A DNA stretch of 41,777 bases from Bacteroidales bacterium (lineage in GTDB: Bacteria; Bacteroidota; Bacteroidia; Bacteroidales; UBA932), in NCBI GenBank assembly GCA_017617715.1, contig JAFZVQ010000001.1, forward strand, positions 1 through 41,777, read 5' to 3'. Below are positions 4,344 to 12,181 of this stretch, piece after piece; the stretch's first letter is position 1; every line of letters begins with the position of its first letter. The notes under the pieces are model-generated. The model was not told the origin of the DNA and did no database searches. It saw nothing but the letters and a program-made list of their open reading frames with translations. Both the position numbers and the translations under genes were made by a program.

Positions 4344-4384
4344 AATAGGTTTTTCCGATTAGTTTCCGTATCTTAGTGGTCGTT

Positions 4385-6661
4385 ATGACCAGTAAGACTA
4401 AACTGATATCCGGTATAGCGGCCGCCGGCGGTGCGCTGCTTGCCTCCGCTCCCTCTTTGGCGCAACACAGCCCCGTGGCCCCCTTCAACGGCAAGGTGGG
4501 CAAAACGGTTGAAGACACGAAAACCGATTATCCCGCCCACAACCCGGTGGCCCGCCTGGGCGCGCCGAACGTGGTGTGGATAATACTGGACGACACCGGC
4601 TTCGGCGTGAGCTCCGCTTTCGGCGGCCTGGTGGAGACGCCCGCCCTGGACTACCTTGCCGAGAACGGCCTGCGTTTCAACAACTTCCACACGGCATCCA
4701 TAAGCGCCGCCACACGCTCCTGCCTGCTGACGGGCCGCAACCACCACAACTGCCACATGGGACGCTTCAACGACGACAAGTTCGGCGTGCCCGGCTACGA
4801 CACCTACCTGCCGATGGAGAACGGCACCATCGCCGAAATCCTTCGTGAAAACGGTTACGCTACCTTCTGCGTGGGCAAGTACAACGCCATACCGGTGGCC
4901 GACGGCTCCAACGCGGGCCCCTTCAACCGCTGGCCGACGGGACGCGGTTTCGACCACTACTACGGCTTCAACCCGGCTTCCGGTTCCGGTGACCAGTGGC
5001 ATCCGCTGATGTACCGCGACACCCACCGTGAGCCCGAGGATCCGCAGGGCCGTCCCGCCATAGTCCGCCTCGCCGACGAGGCTATCAACTACATCGCCGA
5101 AGAGCAGACGGCCGCCCCCGACAAGCCGTTTTTCCTCTATTTCGCCCCTGCGGCCACCCATACCCCTTATCATGCGAGCCCCGAATGGATCGAAAAATAC
5201 CACGGCCGTTTCGATGCCGGTTGGGAAGACTATGCCCGCAGGACGCTTGAGAACCAGCTCCGTATGGGGATAGTGCCCGCAGGCACGCAGCTCCCGCCGC
5301 CCAACCTGGACGTGCAGGAGTGGGATAAGCTGTCGTCGGACGAGCGCAGGCTCTACGCCCGCCAGATGGAGGCGTTCGCCGGCTTCATGTCCCAGACCGA
5401 CCATGAAATCGGCCGTCTCGTGGATTTCCTGCGCCGTATCGGGGAGCTTGACAACACCTTGATAATAGTAGCGTTAGGCGACAATGGCCCCTCCGGTGAG
5501 GGCTCCAACACCGGCGGACGCGACATGTCTCCCAAGAAGGAGAAGGAATACATAGCCGCCGAGCTCGCAAAGTACGACCACTACGGCGACGAACGCACAT
5601 GGCCGTTCTACCCGACCGGCTGGGCACAGGCCTGCGCGACCCCGTTCCGCTACTACAAGAAATGGGCTGACTACGAAGGCGGCACCCACGACGGCCTGAT
5701 AGTGTTTTACCCTGACGGCCAGCTGCAGAAGGGCGGAATACGCACCCAGTACACCCACGTGACCGACATACTTCCGACCACGGTGGAGCTGACCGGCAGC
5801 AGCGTGCCCAAGACCATCAACGGCTACAGGCAGACCGCCGTCGAAGGCACCAGTTTCGCCTACGCCGTCAATTCCCCCGACGGCAACGTGCCCGACCGTA
5901 AGACCCTGCAGTACTATGAGATGAACTCTTCCTACGCCCTCTATAAGGACGGCTGGAAGGTGCAGTTCCCAAACGGCTCGGTGAACAAGCAGGTCCGCTC
6001 GTTCTTCCCCGACACCGACGTCCACCTCTACAACCTGAAGGAAGATTTCAATGAGACCCGCGACCTTGCAGCCGAATATCCGCAGAAGGTGAAGCAGATG
6101 CTCCGGGAGTTCGACAAGATAGCCCGCAAGAACAACATTTACCCGCTCAAGAACGGCAAATCTGCCGACCCGGACTATCCGGAACCTGCCCGCAGGCATT
6201 ATGACATATTCACCGGATCGCGTCCATGGGCAGAGTATACTTATTTCGACGGCACGCTGGGCAAACCGTACACTTTCGCCGTTTACATCGACGAGGCCGG
6301 CCCGGATGCCAGCGGAGTGCTGCTCTCCATCAAGGGATTTGCCCTTTATGTGCTGGACGGCACGCCCGTCTATGCCGCATCCGACGGCTCCAGGCTCGTG
6401 GCGGATGCCAAGCTTCCTGCCGGCGCGTCCGTGGTGAAGGTGCGTGCTGAGCATAATGAGAAGAACAAGACCATCATACAGCTCTTCATCGACGACCGCC
6501 CGGTCGGCACAAAAGTCCTGAATATCAAGCAGAACATTCCTCCCAAGGCCAACTGCATCAACGTTGGCCGCCAATGGGGATTACCCGTGAATGCGGACTA
6601 CGTGTCCCCGTTCCAGTTCTCCGGAAAGATATTCAAGGCCACGATAGACGTGGACCGCTGA
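4385..6661 (+). CDS. Arylsulfatase-family protein (large AtsA-type), with S-x-A-x-R in place of C-x-P-x-R
   Basis: 758 residues from the ATG at 4385; the GTG at 4376 overlaps a weak -7 element (TATCTTAG, 4369-4376), so ATG is preferred. Residues 1-27 are a signal peptide ending SLAQ. The catalytic domain begins at PNVVWIILDDTGFG (metal ligands Asp69, Asp70) and contains ALGDNG (Asp366, Asn367). Where sulfatases carry the formylglycine motif C/S-x-P-x-R followed by LLTGR, this protein reads S107-A-A-T-R111 then SCLLTGRNHH. The Ser would need anaerobic sulfatase-maturating enzyme, and the Pro is Ala. The C-terminal 130-150 residues form a lectin-like beta domain normal for this long subfamily. 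Family members hydrolyse sulfate esters, but with this motif phosphodiester or other hydrolysis, or inactivity, are real alternatives. No maturase or other sulfatase gene is nearby. Confidence 0.85.
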   Translation: MTSKTKLISGIAAAGGALLASAPSLAQHSPVAPFNGKVGKTVEDTKTDYPAHNPVARLGAPNVVWIILDDTGFGVSSAFGGLVETPALDYLAENGLRFNNFHTASISAATRSCLLTGRNHHNCHMGRFNDDKFGVPGYDTYLPMENGTIAEILRENGYATFCVGKYNAIPVADGSNAGPFNRWPTGRGFDHYYGFNPASGSGDQWHPLMYRDTHREPEDPQGRPAIVRLADEAINYIAEEQTAAPDKPFFLYFAPAATHTPYHASPEWIEKYHGRFDAGWEDYARRTLENQLRMGIVPAGTQLPPPNLDVQEWDKLSSDERRLYARQMEAFAGFMSQTDHEIGRLVDFLRRIGELDNTLIIVALGDNGPSGEGSNTGGRDMSPKKEKEYIAAELAKYDHYGDERTWPFYPTGWAQACATPFRYYKKWADYEGGTHDGLIVFYPDGQLQKGGIRTQYTHVTDILPTTVELTGSSVPKTINGYRQTAVEGTSFAYAVNSPDGNVPDRKTLQYYEMNSSYALYKDGWKVQFPNGSVNKQVRSFFPDTDVHLYNLKEDFNETRDLAAEYPQKVKQMLREFDKIARKNNIYPLKNGKSADPDYPEPARRHYDIFTGSRPWAEYTYFDGTLGKPYTFAVYIDEAGPDASGVLLSIKGFALYVLDGTPVYAASDGSRLVADAKLPAGASVVKVRAEHNEKNKTIIQLFIDDRPVGTKVLNIKQNIPPKANCINVGRQWGLPVNADYVSPFQFSGKIFKATIDVDR

Positions 6662-6667
6662 GAATCC

Positions 6668-7474
6668 TTAATCGAGCATTGCGGCGATGCTGCCGTAGTA
6701 CTTCTTTGAGAGGGGGATGCCTTCTTCCCTGTCCACTCCCAGATCCGCAAAGAACAACCCGGAGGAGTCTTTGCGGATTGATTTTACATGCTTGGGATTC
6801 ACTATGAAGCATCTGTGCGCACGGGCGAATCCGGCCTGTTCGCAGAGCGGCTCCAGGTTTTTCAGGGTATTGCGCAGCTGGAAGCGCTTTTCTATGCCGT
6901 TCTCCAGATAGTGGACCACGATGTAATTCTCGTTGGATTCAATATAGAGCACGGATGAAGATTCGGTGATGAATTTGAGCTGGTGGCGGTTGTCGTAGAA
7001 CTTCAGCCGGACGCCGTCCTGGACGGGTTCCGCATTGTAGTTCTCATTCGCCACGGCAAGCAGCGTGAGAATTATATATGGGTAAAGGGACACTGAACCA
7101 ATGGCTGAGATGCTGCGGCCGAACCAGCTGAACCATCCGTCTTCGCCCCTGTTCATAAGCACCAGGAACAAGCCGGTGAAAGCGCAGTACACTAGTGTCT
7201 CGATAAGGCACCAGGCGAAAAACTTGTAAAGGTCCATGCTCATGTGCTTTCTGAGAAGCCAGAGCAGCAGCCTGGAAAGCAGCATCACTCCCAGGATTAT
7301 GGTGAAGCAGATGATGATGTTGAACGTGGAGACATTGCCGGCTCCTGCCGTCATAAGCCTGCACAGCGCCGCGGGTTCATAAAGAAACACGCTGACCAGA
7401 AAGAAGGCCGGTACGGCGAGCGCGAATATCAGATTCAAAAAAAATGAAGTCAAAGATTTTGTATTTTTCCTCAT
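6668..7474 (-). CDS. Membrane-anchored LytTR-family transcription regulator
   Basis: 268 residues from the ATG at 7474. A longer reading from 7525 would run through the promoter at 7497-7528 and is rejected. Residues about 14-150 contain four hydrophobic segments (LIFALAVPAFFLVSVFLYE, IIICFTIILGVMLLSRLLLWL, LIETLVYCAFTGLFLVLM, LYPYIILTLLAVA). Residues about 165-268 form a LytTR DNA-binding domain with its hallmark segments SVLYIESNENYIVVHY, FARAHRCFIVNPKHVKSIRK and GIPLSKKYYGSI. There is no receiver domain and no histidine kinase next door, so the membrane part is the likely sensor. It is divergent from the acyltransferase operon and separated from it by the repeat array that it most probably binds. 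It ends 6 bp from the sulfatase stop (convergent), with no visible terminator between. Confidence 0.9.
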   Translation of the reverse strand: MRKNTKSLTSFFLNLIFALAVPAFFLVSVFLYEPAALCRLMTAGAGNVSTFNIIICFTIILGVMLLSRLLLWLLRKHMSMDLYKFFAWCLIETLVYCAFTGLFLVLMNRGEDGWFSWFGRSISAIGSVSLYPYIILTLLAVANENYNAEPVQDGVRLKFYDNRHQLKFITESSSVLYIESNENYIVVHYLENGIEKRFQLRNTLKNLEPLCEQAGFARAHRCFIVNPKHVKSIRKDSSGLFFADLGVDREEGIPLSKKYYGSIAAMLD

Positions 7475-7477
7475 TTC

Positions 7478-7590
7478 GTCACAAATTTTGGTGTGACAAA
7501 TATAAGGATAATATTTTTTAGTCACAAAAATCCCGGGGTTTCGTCACAAAATAGCTTATTTCGTCACAAAAACATGCTTTTAGTCGCAAA
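7478..7590. promoter_or_regulatory. Array of direct repeats, likely LytTR operators
   Basis: GTCACAAA occurs at 7478-7485, 7521-7528, 7543-7550 and 7563-7570, with GTCGCAAA at 7583-7590. Start-to-start spacings are 43, 22, 20 and 20 bp, i.e. about two helical turns (four for the first gap). Most copies are preceded by TTTC or TTTA (extended consensus TTTcGTCACAAAa). LytTR proteins such as AgrA and AlgR are known to bind 9-10 bp direct repeats about 21-22 bp apart on one DNA face, and this array has that geometry. GTGTGACAAA at 7491-7500 may be a degenerate extra half-site. The copy at 7521-7528 contains the -33 box of the regulator's own promoter; the copy at 7583-7590 ends 4 bp before the -33 box of the rightward promoter. 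Confidence 0.75.
7497..7528 (-). promoter_or_regulatory. Promoter of the LytTR gene
   Basis: On the minus strand TTTG (7528-7525) and TATATTTG (7504-7497) are spaced by 20 bp, an excellent Bacteroidota promoter. The likely transcript starts near 7490, giving a leader of about 16 nt that contains the first repeat (7478-7485). The -33 box lies inside a GTCACAAA repeat, which suggests autoregulation by occlusion. Confidence 0.7.
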
Positions 7591-7594
7591 TCCT

Positions 7595-7624
7595 TTTGCC
7601 CGGCTTGCGCATGCACTACTTTTG
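7595..7624 (+). promoter_or_regulatory. Promoter of the acyltransferase operon
   Basis: TTTG at 7595-7598 and TACTTTTG at 7617-7624 (TAnnTTTG), 18-bp spacer. Transcription would start about 20 nt before the ATG at 7651. Repeats of the array abut the -33 box, the usual position for an activator. Confidence 0.65.
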
Positions 7625-7650: not shown

Positions 7651-9003
7651 ATGACTATCCCCGAATGGACAAGGCTCGAGAATTCGGCCATCATATATCC
7701 CTCCTGCCAGACGCGGAAATACGCCGCAATGTACAGGCTTTCAGTAACCCTTTCCTCAGATGTCGACAAGGATAAGCTCGACGAAGCCCTCAAGACGGTC
7801 ATCCACCGTTTCCCCAGCTTCCGGTTCACCGTGCGCAAGGGCCTCTTCTGGTGGTTCCTCCGCCGCCTGGAAAACGAACCGGCCATCACCCGGACTTCCG
7901 GGCTCGAGAGTTTCAACATGAAGAAGAATGCCGGCTACATGTTCAAGTTGTCTTGTACCGGACCCCGTGTCGACCTGGACGTGTTCCACGCCCTCACGGA
8001 CGGCACCGGCGGCATGACCTTCCTGCTCAGCGTCGTGGCCGAGTACGTCAGGTTGACGACCGGCACCCGGATCACATATGGCAAGTGGGTCTACAACCCT
8101 TTCGAGGAGCCCGATGAGTGCGAGATCGAAGACGGTTTCGACCAGTTTTCCGGCACCAAGGGGGCGCTCGACAACGAGGAAAAGGCCTATCATGTGAAAG
8201 GACGCACTGAAAAGTCCGACGTGCTCAACTCCCTGGGCGTTTCCATCCAGGAAAATCAGCTGACGGACAAGGCCCGCGAGCTGGGCTGCACCGTCACCGA
8301 ACTGGTCTCTGCCCTCATGCTGGTGTCCCTGCAGGAACTGCGTGAGGCGGACCCTTCCCGCCGCAAGCGCACGAATATACGCATGGAGGTTCCCGTGAAT
8401 CTCCGTCCCATCTTTGGTAGCAGGACACTCAGGAACTTCTCTTCCTACATCTATCTCGGCGTCGATGTGAGCAACGGCAACCTAAGCTTTGAAGACACGC
8501 TGCGCGAGGTAAGGAGCCAGAAGAGCCTCTATCTCCAGCGCGGCCGCCTGTTGCGCCGCATAGCCGCCAACGTGGCCCTGGAAGACAACCTGGCTATCAG
8601 GTGCACCCCGCTCTTCATTAAGCGGCCCGTCATCAACCTTATCAACCACCTGAAGGGCGACAATTACAGCACCTACACCTTTTCCAATCTCGGAAGGATT
8701 GATCTTCCCGAGGAGATGAGGGAGTATGTCAGGGACATCCATTTCGTCCTGGGACGCACCCGTGAACGTTTCGGATCCTGCGCCTGCGCAAGCTACGGCG
8801 GCCGGCTGAATCTCGATTTCTCCCGCAAGATTGCCGGAGACGATTTTGAACGCACGTTCATCAGGAACCTGCGCAGCCTTGGCATCTGGGCCACGATATC
8901 CGTGCCTTCCGAACCGCTTCGTCCGGAGCATGGAAAGGATGTTCCGGCAAAGGCCGTACTCAGCGGCAAAGGCTTGATTCCGAAATTCTTACTTTCTATT
9001 TAA
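7651..9003 (+). CDS. Condensation-domain/alcohol acetyltransferase-like acyltransferase
   Basis: 450 residues from the ATG at 7651. The CoA-dependent acyltransferase superfamily motif HxxxDG is intact: His113-A-L-T-Asp117-Gly118 in DVFHALTDGTGG, with the preceding strands that normally form the acceptor tunnel. The second half holds the expected RMEVPVNLRPIFGS and SNLGRID segments found in wax-ester synthase/PapA5/alcohol acetyltransferase relatives. Such enzymes move an acyl group from a CoA or carrier protein onto an alcohol or amine; the substrate here is unknown. No signal peptide, so cytoplasmic or membrane-peripheral. First gene of an operon with a PlsC-like acyltransferase, an acyl-CoA ligase and DUF3737, and read from the LytTR-controlled promoter. 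It lacks adenylation or carrier domains, so it is not an NRPS module. Confidence 0.8.
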   Translation: MTIPEWTRLENSAIIYPSCQTRKYAAMYRLSVTLSSDVDKDKLDEALKTVIHRFPSFRFTVRKGLFWWFLRRLENEPAITRTSGLESFNMKKNAGYMFKLSCTGPRVDLDVFHALTDGTGGMTFLLSVVAEYVRLTTGTRITYGKWVYNPFEEPDECEIEDGFDQFSGTKGALDNEEKAYHVKGRTEKSDVLNSLGVSIQENQLTDKARELGCTVTELVSALMLVSLQELREADPSRRKRTNIRMEVPVNLRPIFGSRTLRNFSSYIYLGVDVSNGNLSFEDTLREVRSQKSLYLQRGRLLRRIAANVALEDNLAIRCTPLFIKRPVINLINHLKGDNYSTYTFSNLGRIDLPEEMREYVRDIHFVLGRTRERFGSCACASYGGRLNLDFSRKIAGDDFERTFIRNLRSLGIWATISVPSEPLRPEHGKDVPAKAVLSGKGLIPKFLLSI

Positions 9004-9040: not shown

Positions 9041-9598
9041 ATGGATATCTGGGGTAAATTCTGCGGATTCGTACTCAAGACTCTCGGCTGGAAAATAGCC
9101 AACGGCGCCGTCGAAGAAGATAAATGTGTCATTCTTGGTGTCCCGCACACCAGCATTTGGGATTTCCTGATTTCCTACCTCTACTACCGCTCATGCGGTG
9201 AAAAGGCGAGGTGCATGGTCAAGAAAGAGTTTTTCTTCCCGCCCCTGAGCTGGCTGCTCCGTGCCATGGGCGGCATCCCGGTGGACCGCAGCAACCCCAC
9301 CAACATGCTTCGCAGTGTGATCAGGGAGATGGAAGCCCCCGGCCGTTTCCACCTTGCCATATCTCCGGAAGGCACCCGTAAGCCCGTCAAGAACTGGAAG
9401 ACCGGATTCCATCTCATCGCCCGCACTGCAGGCGTCCCGGTGTATCTCGGCTTCTTCGACTGGGGCACCAAGACGGTGGGCAGGGGAGAGAAGGTGGAGT
9501 TGACTGACGATCCACGGGCTGACATGAAGCGTATCCAGGAGCTCTACGAGCAGATGCATCTCACGGGCAAGCATCCTGAAAAATACATCACCCACTAG
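9041..9598 (+). CDS. PlsC-like (LPLAT family) acyltransferase
   Basis: 185 residues from the ATG at 9041; a reading from the TTG at 9014 would overlap TATATTTG (9009-9016), a possible internal promoter. The acyltransferase motifs are visible in order: Hx4D as His36-T-S-I-W-Asp41, the GGIPVDRS block around 85-92, SPEGTR at 108-113, and VPVYLG near 131-136. In LPLAT enzymes His/Asp form the catalytic dyad and the EGTR block binds the phosphate of the acceptor. It is shorter than typical PlsC (about 240 residues) and lacks a clear transmembrane start, which matches a small soluble or peripheral subgroup. It lies 37 bp after the condensation-type gene and 1 bp before the ligase, so it probably acylates the same lipid as its neighbours. 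Confidence 0.85.
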   Translation: MDIWGKFCGFVLKTLGWKIANGAVEEDKCVILGVPHTSIWDFLISYLYYRSCGEKARCMVKKEFFFPPLSWLLRAMGGIPVDRSNPTNMLRSVIREMEAPGRFHLAISPEGTRKPVKNWKTGFHLIARTAGVPVYLGFFDWGTKTVGRGEKVELTDDPRADMKRIQELYEQMHLTGKHPEKYITH

Positions 9599-9599
9599 A

Positions 9600-11234
9600 A
9601 TGAGACACAATTTCCAATCTCTTTCCGACGTTCTGAACTACAGCACTGCGAAGTACGCCAGACGCACGGCGTTTTCGCTCATCGACGGCTCGCAGTCATA
9701 TACATACGCCACTTTCAACGAAACCTGCCGCAGGATTTCCCGAGAACTGACCAACTTCGGCATAAATGCCGGAGACAAGGTGGCCATCCTCGCCCAGAAT
9801 TCCCCCAACTGGCCGGTCGCTCTTTTCTCAGTGACTGCATTCGGTCGAATCGCAGTGCCCATGCTCACGGAGCTTTCCGTCAACGAAATCACCAATATTC
9901 TGGTACACTCCGACGCCAAGGCCCTTTTCGTCAGCAAACGCCTGCTCTCCAAGGTCCCGGAGAACATCCTGTCCCGGATGCACATAGTCATCTGCACCGA
10001 CGACCTTTCCGTCATCCGTGGCGAAGACCGCGCCTACACCTGCGACGGCTACATTTCCAACCCGCTGCCGGACGACCTCGCATGCATAATCTATACGTCC
10101 GGCACCACCGGGGCCGCCAAGGGCGTGATGCTCACCCATAAGAACTTCTGCGCCAATATCTACGCCTCCTGGGTGGCCGCACATGCCTACCGCCGCGACG
10201 TGTTCCTGTCCATACTGCCGCTGGCCCACACCTACGAAATGAGCGTCGGCATGCTGTATCCGTTCTCCGTCGGCGCCCGCGTGTGCTACATCAACCGTCC
10301 CCCGACCCCTTCGGTGCTGCTTCCTGCGTTCAGGAAGATTCGCCCCACGATGATGCTTTCCGTGCCGCTGGTCATCGAAAAGATATTCCATTCCAGCATC
10401 GTGCCCACCATCGAAAAGAGCAAGTACCTGACCTGGATGCGCAAGTTCAGCCCGTCTCTGCTGTGCTTCCTGGTGGGCTTGCGCCTGAAGAAGACTTTCG
10501 GCGGACGCCTGCGCTTCTTCGGCATCGGCGGCGCTAAGCTCGACCCGGAAGTGGAGCGTTTCCTCGGGAAGGCAAAGTTCCCGTACGCAATAGGTTACGG
10601 CCTCACGGAGACCGCTCCTCTCATATGCAACGCCAACCCCAGGCAGACGCACCTCGGCTCCACCGGCATTGCCGCTGCCGGCGTGCAGATCCGCCTCGAA
10701 AACCGGAACCCCGAGACGGGGGAGGGCGAAATAGTGGTCAAGGGCGACAACGTGATGCGGGGGTACTATAAAGACTACAACCGCACGCTTCAGGTGCTGT
10801 CGCAGGACGGCTGGTTCCGCACCGGCGACCTCGCCACCGTGGACAAGAAGGGCCGCTACTCCATAAAGGGACGCATCGGCACCGTCATACTCGGGCCTTC
10901 AGGGGAGAACATCTATCCCGAAGAGATCGAGAACGTGATCAACAACATCGCCGACGTCTGCGAGTCGCTGGTGGTGGAGCGCGACGGCCATCTGGTGGCC
11001 CTCGTGCATTTCAACGACAACGTGCTCGACTGGAATTATGAGAACCAGGACCGTTTCATCGCCGACCTCGAGCGCCGCAAGCAGGAAATCCTCGAATTCG
11101 TGAATTCCCATGTCAACAGGAACAGCCGTATCAAGGAGGTGGAGGTGGAGAAGCAGCCGTTCGTGAAGACCGCCACGATGAAAATCAAACGTTTTCTCTA
11201 TAAGGAAAAGAAGGATGAAAGTAATAAGCAATAA
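9600..11234 (+). CDS. Long-chain acyl-CoA/AMP-forming ligase (FadD-like)
   Basis: 544 residues. ANL-superfamily motifs are all present: the phosphate-binding loop YTSGTTGAAKGVMLTHKN (about 165-182), the adenylate-binding YGLTETAP, the GWFRTGDLATVDKKG hinge region, and the C-terminal GPSGENIYPEEIE with KTATMKIKR, whose lysine region completes thioesterification. It would activate a fatty acid (or another carboxylate) to an acyl-adenylate and load it on CoA or a carrier. In the operon it could supply the acyl donor for the two acyltransferases. The start codon is separated from the previous stop by a single base, and the 3' end overlaps DUF3737 by 20 bp, strong signs of translational coupling. 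Substrate chain length cannot be told from sequence. Confidence 0.9.
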   Translation: MRHNFQSLSDVLNYSTAKYARRTAFSLIDGSQSYTYATFNETCRRISRELTNFGINAGDKVAILAQNSPNWPVALFSVTAFGRIAVPMLTELSVNEITNILVHSDAKALFVSKRLLSKVPENILSRMHIVICTDDLSVIRGEDRAYTCDGYISNPLPDDLACIIYTSGTTGAAKGVMLTHKNFCANIYASWVAAHAYRRDVFLSILPLAHTYEMSVGMLYPFSVGARVCYINRPPTPSVLLPAFRKIRPTMMLSVPLVIEKIFHSSIVPTIEKSKYLTWMRKFSPSLLCFLVGLRLKKTFGGRLRFFGIGGAKLDPEVERFLGKAKFPYAIGYGLTETAPLICNANPRQTHLGSTGIAAAGVQIRLENRNPETGEGEIVVKGDNVMRGYYKDYNRTLQVLSQDGWFRTGDLATVDKKGRYSIKGRIGTVILGPSGENIYPEEIENVINNIADVCESLVVERDGHLVALVHFNDNVLDWNYENQDRFIADLERRKQEILEFVNSHVNRNSRIKEVEVEKQPFVKTATMKIKRFLYKEKKDESNKQ

Positions 11235-12057
11235 GGAGTTCGGTGGCGAGAGGCCGCTGTACTGCGAGCATGGGCTGCGCCTGGAGAACGTCACCATCCA
11301 CGCCGGAGAGTCGGCGCTGAAGGAGACGTCCGATATCGAGGCCGTGGGCTGCCGTTTCGAGGGGAAGTATCCCTTCTGGTGCTGCGAAGGCTTCACGGTG
11401 AAGGACTGCCTGTTCACCGAGGGCGCCCGCGCCGCCCTGTGGTACAGCAGCGGCCTGCTGATGGAAGACACGCTGGTCGAAGCGCCCAAGATGTTCCGGG
11501 AGATGCGGGACCTCAAACTGCGCCGGGTGCGTATCCCCAATGCGGCCGAAACCTTCTGGAATTGCCGCGAAGTGGAGCTTGAGGACGTTGATGTGGACAA
11601 GGGGGATTATCTTTTCATGCATTCCTCCGGAATACGTATCCGGGACCTGAAGCTTCAAGGCAACTATTCATTCCAGTATTGCAAGGACGTGGAGATACAT
11701 GATTCCATCCTGCACACCAAGGACGCCTTCTGGGAGACGGAGAACATAACTGTCTATGATTCAGTGATTATAGGAGAGTACCTGGGCTGGTATTCGCGCA
11801 ACCTTCGCCTGGTGGGCTGCCGCATCGGCGGCACCCAACCGCTCTGCTATGCGGAGGGCCTTGAACTCGTGAACTGCACTTTCGATCCCGATGCCGACCT
11901 GGCTTTCGAGTACTCCTCGGTGGATGCGGATATCAGGGGCGCCGTCACCTCCGTCAAGAATCCCCGCACCGGCCGCATCGTAGCTGATTCGTACGGCGAA
12001 ATAATCCTTGACTCCAACATCAAATCCCCCGGCGACTGCTCGATAATCACCCGGTGA
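11215..12057 (+). CDS. DUF3737-family right-handed beta-helix protein
   Basis: 280 residues composed of about ten rungs of 20-22 residues with alternating hydrophobic positions and recurrent 'C/V-E-L-x-x-C/V-x' patterns (for example GLRLENVTIHAGESALKE, DIEAVGCRFEGKYPFWCCE, DLKLRRVRIPNAAETFWNC, NITVYDSVIIGEYLGWYSRN). This is the pectate-lyase-like solenoid assigned to DUF3737, a family with no established activity. No signal peptide, so it is cytoplasmic. The ATG is inside the end of the ligase gene, with AAGGA-type purines just upstream. In such operons it may be a scaffold or a lipid/carbohydrate-binding partner; that is inference. It is the last gene before the hairpin at 12076-12108. Confidence 0.85.
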   Translation: MKVISNKEFGGERPLYCEHGLRLENVTIHAGESALKETSDIEAVGCRFEGKYPFWCCEGFTVKDCLFTEGARAALWYSSGLLMEDTLVEAPKMFREMRDLKLRRVRIPNAAETFWNCREVELEDVDVDKGDYLFMHSSGIRIRDLKLQGNYSFQYCKDVEIHDSILHTKDAFWETENITVYDSVIIGEYLGWYSRNLRLVGCRIGGTQPLCYAEGLELVNCTFDPDADLAFEYSSVDADIRGAVTSVKNPRTGRIVADSYGEIILDSNIKSPGDCSIITR

Positions 12058-12075
12058 TTATTTACAGCACACATA

Positions 12076-12108
12076 CCGAAAAAGGCCGGCTTTTGCCGAC
12101 CTTTTCGG
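12076..12108. terminator. Bidirectional hairpin terminator
   Basis: CCGAAAAAGGCCGGC-tttt-GCCGACCTTTTCGG folds into a long stem with A-rich and T-rich flanks on the two arms, so it can terminate both the rightward DUF3737 operon and the leftward tRNA. The last base is also the 3' discriminator base of the tRNA. Confidence 0.75.
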
Positions 12109-12181
12109 GTGCGATGTGGGGCTCGAACCCACGACACCCAGAACCACAATCTGGTGCTCTACCAACTGAACTAATCGCACC
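12108..12181 (-). tRNA. tRNA-His (anticodon GTG)
   Basis: On the minus strand the cloverleaf is complete: acceptor GTGCGAT/ATCGCAC, D arm with AGTTGGTA, anticodon stem CCAGA/TCTGG around loop TTGTGGT (anticodon GTG), and T arm GTGGG-TTCGAGC-CCCAC. The base before the acceptor is G (12181, G-1) opposite C73 (12108), the identity pair of histidine tRNAs. CCA is not encoded: the bases after C73 read CGA. Its promoter lies at 12195-12225. Confidence 0.95.

Follow-up and report, generated by a model that had tools for sequence, protein, structure and literature searches.

The gap between the gene for a membrane LytTR protein and a divergent acyltransferase operon, in a 41,777-bp stretch of Bacteroidales DNA (the whole of which is here called the window), quite probably holds a compound, bidirectional operator of six TTTnGTCACAAA boxes that serves this divergently encoded, four-helix regulator. 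Comparison across genomes showed that the array is conserved and phased, that its direct and inverted boxes appear to share a mode of recognition, and that it also stands at the operon where the regulator gene is absent.

The box array and its two promoters

Five direct copies of GTCRCAAA (S1 to S5, Table 1) were found on the + strand by direct reading and with a repeat finder, the latter giving start-to-start spacings of 43, 22, 20 and 20 bp. These repeats and spacings had been given in the preliminary description and were reproduced by direct reading, the repeat finder and a pattern scan, but the count of five boxes was too low, as an inverted copy, GTGACAAA, had been overlooked. GTCRCAAA occurs six times on both strands of the 41,777-bp window, five of these inside the array, and a shuffled window is expected to hold 2.73; the Poisson estimate for five copies on one strand within 113 bp is about 6e-15. 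The weakest box is S5 (GTCGC), which also shows the most letter variation among orthologues, often reading GTGGC. LytTR sites are described in the available part of PMC4847170 as repeats of 9–11 nt, direct or inverse, with 11–13 bp spacers. The spacing in the window agrees with this published distance (repeats 11–13 bp apart, or about 20–24 bp start to start), and the earlier suggestion of a LytTR-site geometry is borne out both by the 22, 20 and 20 bp seen here and by a peak at 20–22 bp in paralogous loci.

Table 1. Features of the LytTR–acyltransferase region, with positions in the window
Feature	Position	Strand	Remarks
Regulator gene, 268 aa	6668..7474	-	four predicted membrane segments, then LytTR domain at residues 172-267
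Box S1 (GTCACAAA)	7478..7485	+	4 bp upstream of regulator start codon; pairs with the inverted box as the left half of an inverted repeat
Inverted sixth box (GTGACAAA on +, TTTGTCAC on -)	7493..7500	-	overlaps regulator -7 box
Regulator -7 box TATATTTG	7497..7504	-	TAnnTTTG in 28/29 orthologous regions
Box S2 (GTCACAAA)	7521..7528	+	CAAA part is the regulator -33 TTTG on the - strand (7525-7528)
Box S3 (GTCACAAA)	7543..7550	+	74 bp before operon -7 box
Box S4 (GTCACAAA)	7563..7570	+	54 bp before operon -7 box
Box S5 (GTCGCAAA)	7583..7590	+	34 bp before operon -7 box
Operon -33-like TTTG	7595..7598	+	kept in 2/29 orthologous regions
Operon -7 box TACTTTTG	7617..7624	+	aligned TAnnTTTG in 29/29 orthologous regions
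Operon gene 1, condensation-type acyltransferase (alcohol acetyltransferase-like)	7651..9003	+	PF07247, E 4.4e-6
Operon gene 2, PlsC-type acyltransferase	9041..9598	+	PF01553, E 2.1e-12
Operon gene 3, AMP-binding acyl-CoA/ACP ligase	9600..11234	+	PF00501, E 1.4e-79
Operon gene 4, DUF3737	11215..12057	+	PF12541, E 3.7e-121

The regulator matches PF04397 over residues 172–267 (E 5.6e-14; 52.6 bits against a curated cut-off of 22.6), and its Kyte–Doolittle profile has four peaks, at 6–43, 42–77, 85–108 and 121–143, all N-terminal to the LytTR domain. A search of solved structures returned one usable LytTR match, 3d6w (E 1.7e-6). The start codon is most likely the ATG at 7474 rather than the mechanically listed GTG at 7525, because the start codons of orthologues align there. 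Besides the divergent acyltransferase operon the regulator has a sulfatase gene as neighbour (4376–6661), and among the listed ORFs of the window no separate membrane-inhibitor gene, the second partner of a two-gene LytTR Regulatory System (LRS), was seen beside it. At the far end of the operon, a tRNA-His (gtg) gene lies on the - strand just past the DUF3737 gene (12107–12180), and elsewhere in the window a 33-bp tandem repeat of 2–3 copies (489–584) occupies the C-terminal end of the 457–1671 ORF.

Bacteroidetes-type promoters have the consensus TTTG / TAnnTTTG. The -33 TTTG of the regulator promoter is present inside S2, as first described, and is kept in 19 of the 29 orthologous regions introduced below. 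The TTTG at 7595, proposed as the matching element of the operon promoter, is also present, 4 bp after S5, but it is not conserved: 27 of the 29 regions have no TTTG (spacer 17–21).

Conservation at orthologous, paralogous and unlinked loci

A scan for relatives of the regulator, using one genome per species, returned 27 loci in Bacteroidales metagenome assemblies, many of them from the rumen. The acyltransferase gene adjoins the regulator in 26 of the 27, PlsC was found in 21, the ligase in 21 (at least 68% identity) and DUF3737 in 17, two of the misses of the last being cut contigs. PlsC is absent from L048, L052 and L053 despite enough flank, some other misses of operon genes are contig ends, and L056 has PlsC and the ligase without the acyltransferase. 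Orthologous sequences were assembled into 29 distinct intergenic regions, from the 27 loci and two relatives of the same genus less one duplicate (L047, with an intergenic region identical to that of L046). The preliminary description had pointed to related genomes with the same divergent pair as the place to look for the repeats, and there both boxes and spacing proved to be conserved: in the alignment the boxes are in register in all 29 regions, the stretch that runs from S3 up to the -7 box of the operon is free of indels, and S4 lies exactly 54 bp from that -7 box in 29 of 29 regions by weight-matrix scan (25 of 29 by the strict pattern). The box consensus among orthologues is TTTnGTCACAAW. 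Repeats that are phase-locked to the operon -7 box and keep their spacing among relatives uphold the original reading of the region as an operator array.

The circuit is not confined to one locus: many paralogous loci show the same layout. The LytTR relatives at these loci share about 25–36% identity with the regulator, are mostly from the same genus, and have unrelated partners: FabF, FabH, AMP-ligases, GDSL lipases, a family-8 glycosyltransferase, a PlsC protein and DUF6051. One clade has a noncoding element in place of a partner gene. The Pfam search gave no match for the thioesterase-like partner at L063 or for the partner at L085. Box pairs 20–22 bp apart number 36 in 56 paralogous regions, counted with regions shorter than 150 bp left out, whereas 300 shuffles gave 0.08, and 2 at most. 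With the strict pattern, such a pair is present in 26 of 58 paralogous regions, and not all paralogues fit. A box stands 54 bp from the target -7 box in 15 of the 58, compared with 0.01 in shuffles. Pairs at 74, 54 and 34 bp from the -7 box, again by the strict pattern, amount to 28, 25 and 1 in the 29 orthologous regions, 22, 15 and 7 in the 58 paralogous regions, and 14, 8 and 3 in the 17 regions upstream of unlinked acyltransferase operons, the shuffle control for this phasing, counted at 54 bp, being about 0.01 or less.

Several features of individual paralogues deserve mention. In the clade with a noncoding partner (L066, L070, L071, L074, L076, L079, L110 and L112), the divergent promoter, apparently driven by the array, leads into a short stretch of noncoding DNA with a conserved AAGTTAAAGTACA and a terminator-like hairpin. 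This element is a putative LytTR-controlled small RNA; an Rfam search assigned the element of these eight loci to no family, its one match being a tRNA in L080. A third box type, (A/G)CC(A/C)C, repeated at about 20 bp, occurs upstream of fabH at four loci with a more distant LytTR (L091, L093, L095 and L096), and similar boxes were seen at three unlinked acyltransferase operons (L177, L178 and L180). The genome of the window encodes a second LytTR relative (L098, contig C52), divergent from a fabF-like gene across a short gap with no visible array.

Acyltransferase operons were also found away from any regulator gene. Thirty acyltransferase loci were examined, 15 further places being left out; 10 are linked to LytTR, and the other 20 have no LytTR in the fetched flank. 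Seventeen of the unlinked loci keep boxes phased to the -7 box, with 21 box pairs at 20–22 bp against 0.014 in 500 shuffles. L190 and L192, unlinked homologues of operon gene 1, have no array upstream. The upstream of L191, a fragment lying at the end of a contig, could not be judged. In three genomes (G008, G015 and G080) the layout at the unlinked operon, GTCCC, a gap and then GTCAC (about 41 bp), is that of the LytTR gene of the same genome, and in G022 a LytTR–PlsC pair and an acyltransferase lie at separate places with arrays at both. An unlinked array is held by seven of 12 genomes in which the LytTR gene has no detected local array, compared with four of 30 others (p 0.006); this comparison counted 13 of 48 LytTR loci as having no local array, among them five (L060, L070, L075, L077 and L083) with at least one weight-matrix box that missed the strict criterion, and left out L107, where no more than 47 bp of upstream sequence was usable. 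One genome, G077 (80% complete), has the array and no LytTR match at E 1e-3.

A blind search for GTCACAA N11-15 GTCACAA in 121 genomes of the same genus gave 31 matches, against four for the reversed pattern. They represent 24 distinct places, of which 15 adjoin the 5' side of a divergent family LytTR gene, one is upstream of an unlinked acyltransferase, and eight have neither a family LytTR nor an acyltransferase in the fetched flank, some being inside ORFs. The equivalent search with GTCCCAA pairs was not enriched (eight matches, 19 for the reversed pattern); two of the eight are upstream of an acyltransferase and one is beside a same-strand family LytTR ORF. In the genome of the window (77% complete), the AT-rich array is found only in the window; of the six pattern matches, the other three are GTCGCA pairs whose flank contains no LytTR of the family. 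An irregular, iteron-like set of GTCACAAA repeats with inverted copies was noticed at L140 (G154, contig C7), away from a family LytTR gene.

Recognition and regulation

The core of the inverted box, GTGAC (7493–7497), is invariant in all 29 orthologous regions, but the box overlaps the regulator -7 box, and its conservation alone could therefore be that of promoter sequence. From comparison between loci it is nonetheless a predicted binding site and not just promoter sequence, because it recurs at paralogous and unlinked regions and changes its letter with the direct boxes. A direct box follows it at a distance of 28 or 29 bp in 24 of the 29 orthologous regions, in 28 of the 58 paralogous ones and in 11 of the 17 unlinked ones. 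Where S2 reads GTCAC it pairs with an inverted GTGAC in 14 of 14 non-orthologous regions, and where S2 reads GTCCC it pairs with GGGAC in 19 of 25 and with GTGAC in six of 25 (Fisher 3e-6, which ignores shared ancestry); S1 set against the inverted-box letter gives 13:1 and 4:10 (p 1e-3, with shared ancestry again ignored). Together with S1 the inverted box makes an inverted repeat, usually 14–15 bp start to start and 15 bp in the window. S1, the inverted box and S2 are all present at seven of the 17 unlinked acyltransferase operons, and the inverted box with S2 at 11. Because S1 and the inverted box persist at some operons with no LytTR nearby, the S1 end appears to be more than a simple autoregulation site, which suggests that it may also serve the operon; co-operative binding or looping could be the means.

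It could be argued that all of the boxes are mere promoter elements (TTTG/CAAA), or chance AT-rich repeats, with no protein binding to them, and the overlap of S2 and the inverted box with the -33 and -7 elements of the regulator would fit that reading. It is exceedingly improbable, given that S3 and S4 are conserved yet overlap no promoter element, that operons lacking the regulator gene still carry boxes, that letter changes beyond the TTTG part affect direct and inverted boxes jointly, and that shuffles yield almost none.

The boxes are very probably bound by the LytTR product. Recognition by some other DNA-binding protein, with the LytTR gene a mere neighbour, would accommodate the arrays that lie away from any detected LytTR gene, but it is improbable, since the LytTR gene is what loci with unrelated partners have in common, 15 of the 24 places in the blind search border one, and a 20–22 bp spacing is that of LytTR sites. 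Also on the side of another binder is the correlation between box letter and protein residue, which is not significant once phylogeny is considered. Among 69 protein–array assignments (eight using an unlinked array), Glu182, at a position picked from a scan of 108 domain columns, is present in 42 of 42 proteins with GTCAC-type arrays and in 10 of 27 with GTCCC-type arrays, the other 17 having another residue. Loop residues set LytTR specificity, according to the available text of PMC4847170. We infer that residue 182 lies in the recognition loop. Letter and residue differ together between sister groups, L067, L072 and L113 having Glu and GTCAC, and L063, L064, L065 and L115 having Ala and GTCCC. 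In a phylogeny-aware pair test, two to three pairs agree and none oppose (p 0.25, with only four independent pairs), and because of this number of pairs the specificity of Glu182 is kept as a lead. Residue 258 (Lys/Arg) was tried as the letter-specifying residue and rejected (Fisher p 0.48). A CRP-type site was rejected as well: the TCACA half-sites are direct and 20 bp apart, and the GTCCC variants have no TCACA.

With the LytTR protein as the binder, a mechanism can be proposed. Its protomers, held on the membrane, would bind adjacent boxes co-operatively. The four direct repeats S2–S5 (22, 20 and 20 bp) would share a helix face and reach the -33 region of the operon, and the inverted pair of S1 and the inverted box would lie over the -7 box and 5' leader of the regulator gene. 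Occupation of S3–S5 would then activate the operon promoter, which has a good -7 box and usually no consensus -33, and protomers on S2, the inverted box and S1 would block the better-formed promoter of the regulator. Activation of the acyltransferase operon is probable: a conserved -7 box with no -33 TTTG in 27 of 29 regions suits dependence on an activator. On balance the protein may also repress its own gene, a slightly favoured reading, as boxes that lie on the -7 and -33 elements suit repression by occupation.

Less likely, though not without precedent, is an arrangement in which the LytTR protein on the array stimulates its own promoter too, giving positive feedback as in LRS. In the available parts of PMC6193735, the LRS repeats of S. 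mutans lie just upstream of promoters and give positive autoregulation, and a transmembrane LytTR, with repeats near the promoter, also occurs in LRS-like operons (B. thetaiotaomicron and B. ovatus). The layout in the window argues against it, and is the whole of that argument: S2 holds the regulator -33, the inverted box covers the -7 and S1 falls in the leader, and the direct repeats run backwards with respect to the regulator promoter and forwards with respect to the operon.

The partners of LytTR paralogues that act on acyl lipids include a condensation-type acyltransferase, PlsC, an acyl ligase, FabF, FabH and a GDSL lipase. The presence of a membrane domain, and the number of partners related to lipids, make a cue from the envelope or from lipids plausible, and a signal of the membrane or lipid kind can be put forward tentatively. 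More speculative still is a scheme in which four-helix LytTR paralogues throughout the genus would be one-component membrane or lipid sensors, with a six-box grammar phased to the -7 box, acting in trans and tuned to GTCAC or GTCCC by Glu182.

Relation to known LytTR systems

The rumen Bacteroidales are largely uncultured, and few pairs of regulator and operator have been described for them. Since boxes, spacing and phase are the same across paralogues with unrelated targets, the targets of membrane LytTR proteins, unlinked ones included, may be predictable from sequence alone. The rules of LytTR recognition are poorly known, and the GTCAC/GTCCC switch in the sister groups offers a one-residue test of specificity. 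An acyl-lipid regulator embedded in the membrane would, in addition, be a case in which to ask how an integral membrane protein can recognise DNA and sense the envelope. In the literature searched, which was limited to open-licence papers and so is weak evidence of absence, no description of a multi-box, bidirectional LytTR lattice in Bacteroidales was found.

Operators of the AgrA, YpdB and PlnC type resemble the present array in having short repeats one to two turns apart, direct or inverse, and co-operative binding is reported for PlnC and YpdB (available part of PMC4847170). In that part of the source they usually have two repeats, whereas here there are six boxes, four direct and an inverted pair, between two divergent promoters, and they belong to response regulators, whereas the regulator here is a membrane protein with no receiver domain. 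The LRS (HdrRM, BrsRM) and the LRS-like operons of Bacteroides also have repeats that adjoin the promoter, and the Bacteroides cases share with the window a transmembrane LytTR and a promoter of the TAnnTTTG kind, TATCTTTG, the B. thetaiotaomicron form being TGTA-19 bp-TATCTTTG (PMC6193735, as far as its text was available). Unlike those systems, the window has a divergent gene pair and not one operon, with no membrane-inhibitor gene seen alongside; its repeats differ in sequence and number from those of B. thetaiotaomicron (TCCGGTATTCA / ACCGGAAATCA); and, in place of the positive autoregulation of LRS, its layout makes repression at the regulator's own promoter the probable outcome (same source).

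In protein architecture the regulator resembles HigX, a transmembrane LytTR protein of Caulobacter crescentus with four helices, which its authors term a 'fused LRS' and in which the membrane domain is needed for DNA binding or regulation (available part of PMC13384398). Both proteins have four predicted membrane helices followed by LytTR, with no separate periplasmic domain, and hydropathy places all four segments of the regulator N-terminal to LytTR in one protein, as in a fused LRS. Envelope-related targets are a further shared trait. In the excerpts available, the ChIP motif of HigX is an abutting 8-bp inverted repeat, whereas the array here consists mainly of direct repeats at 20–22 bp with one spaced inverted pair, and HigX is alphaproteobacterial whereas the present regulator is from Bacteroidales. 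LytTR repeat sites, LRS-like operons in Bacteroides and the four-helix HigX are already published (PMC4847170, PMC6193735, PMC13384398); what appears to be new is the proposed six-box, bidirectional LytTR lattice of Bacteroidales, which at some loci stands apart from the regulator gene.
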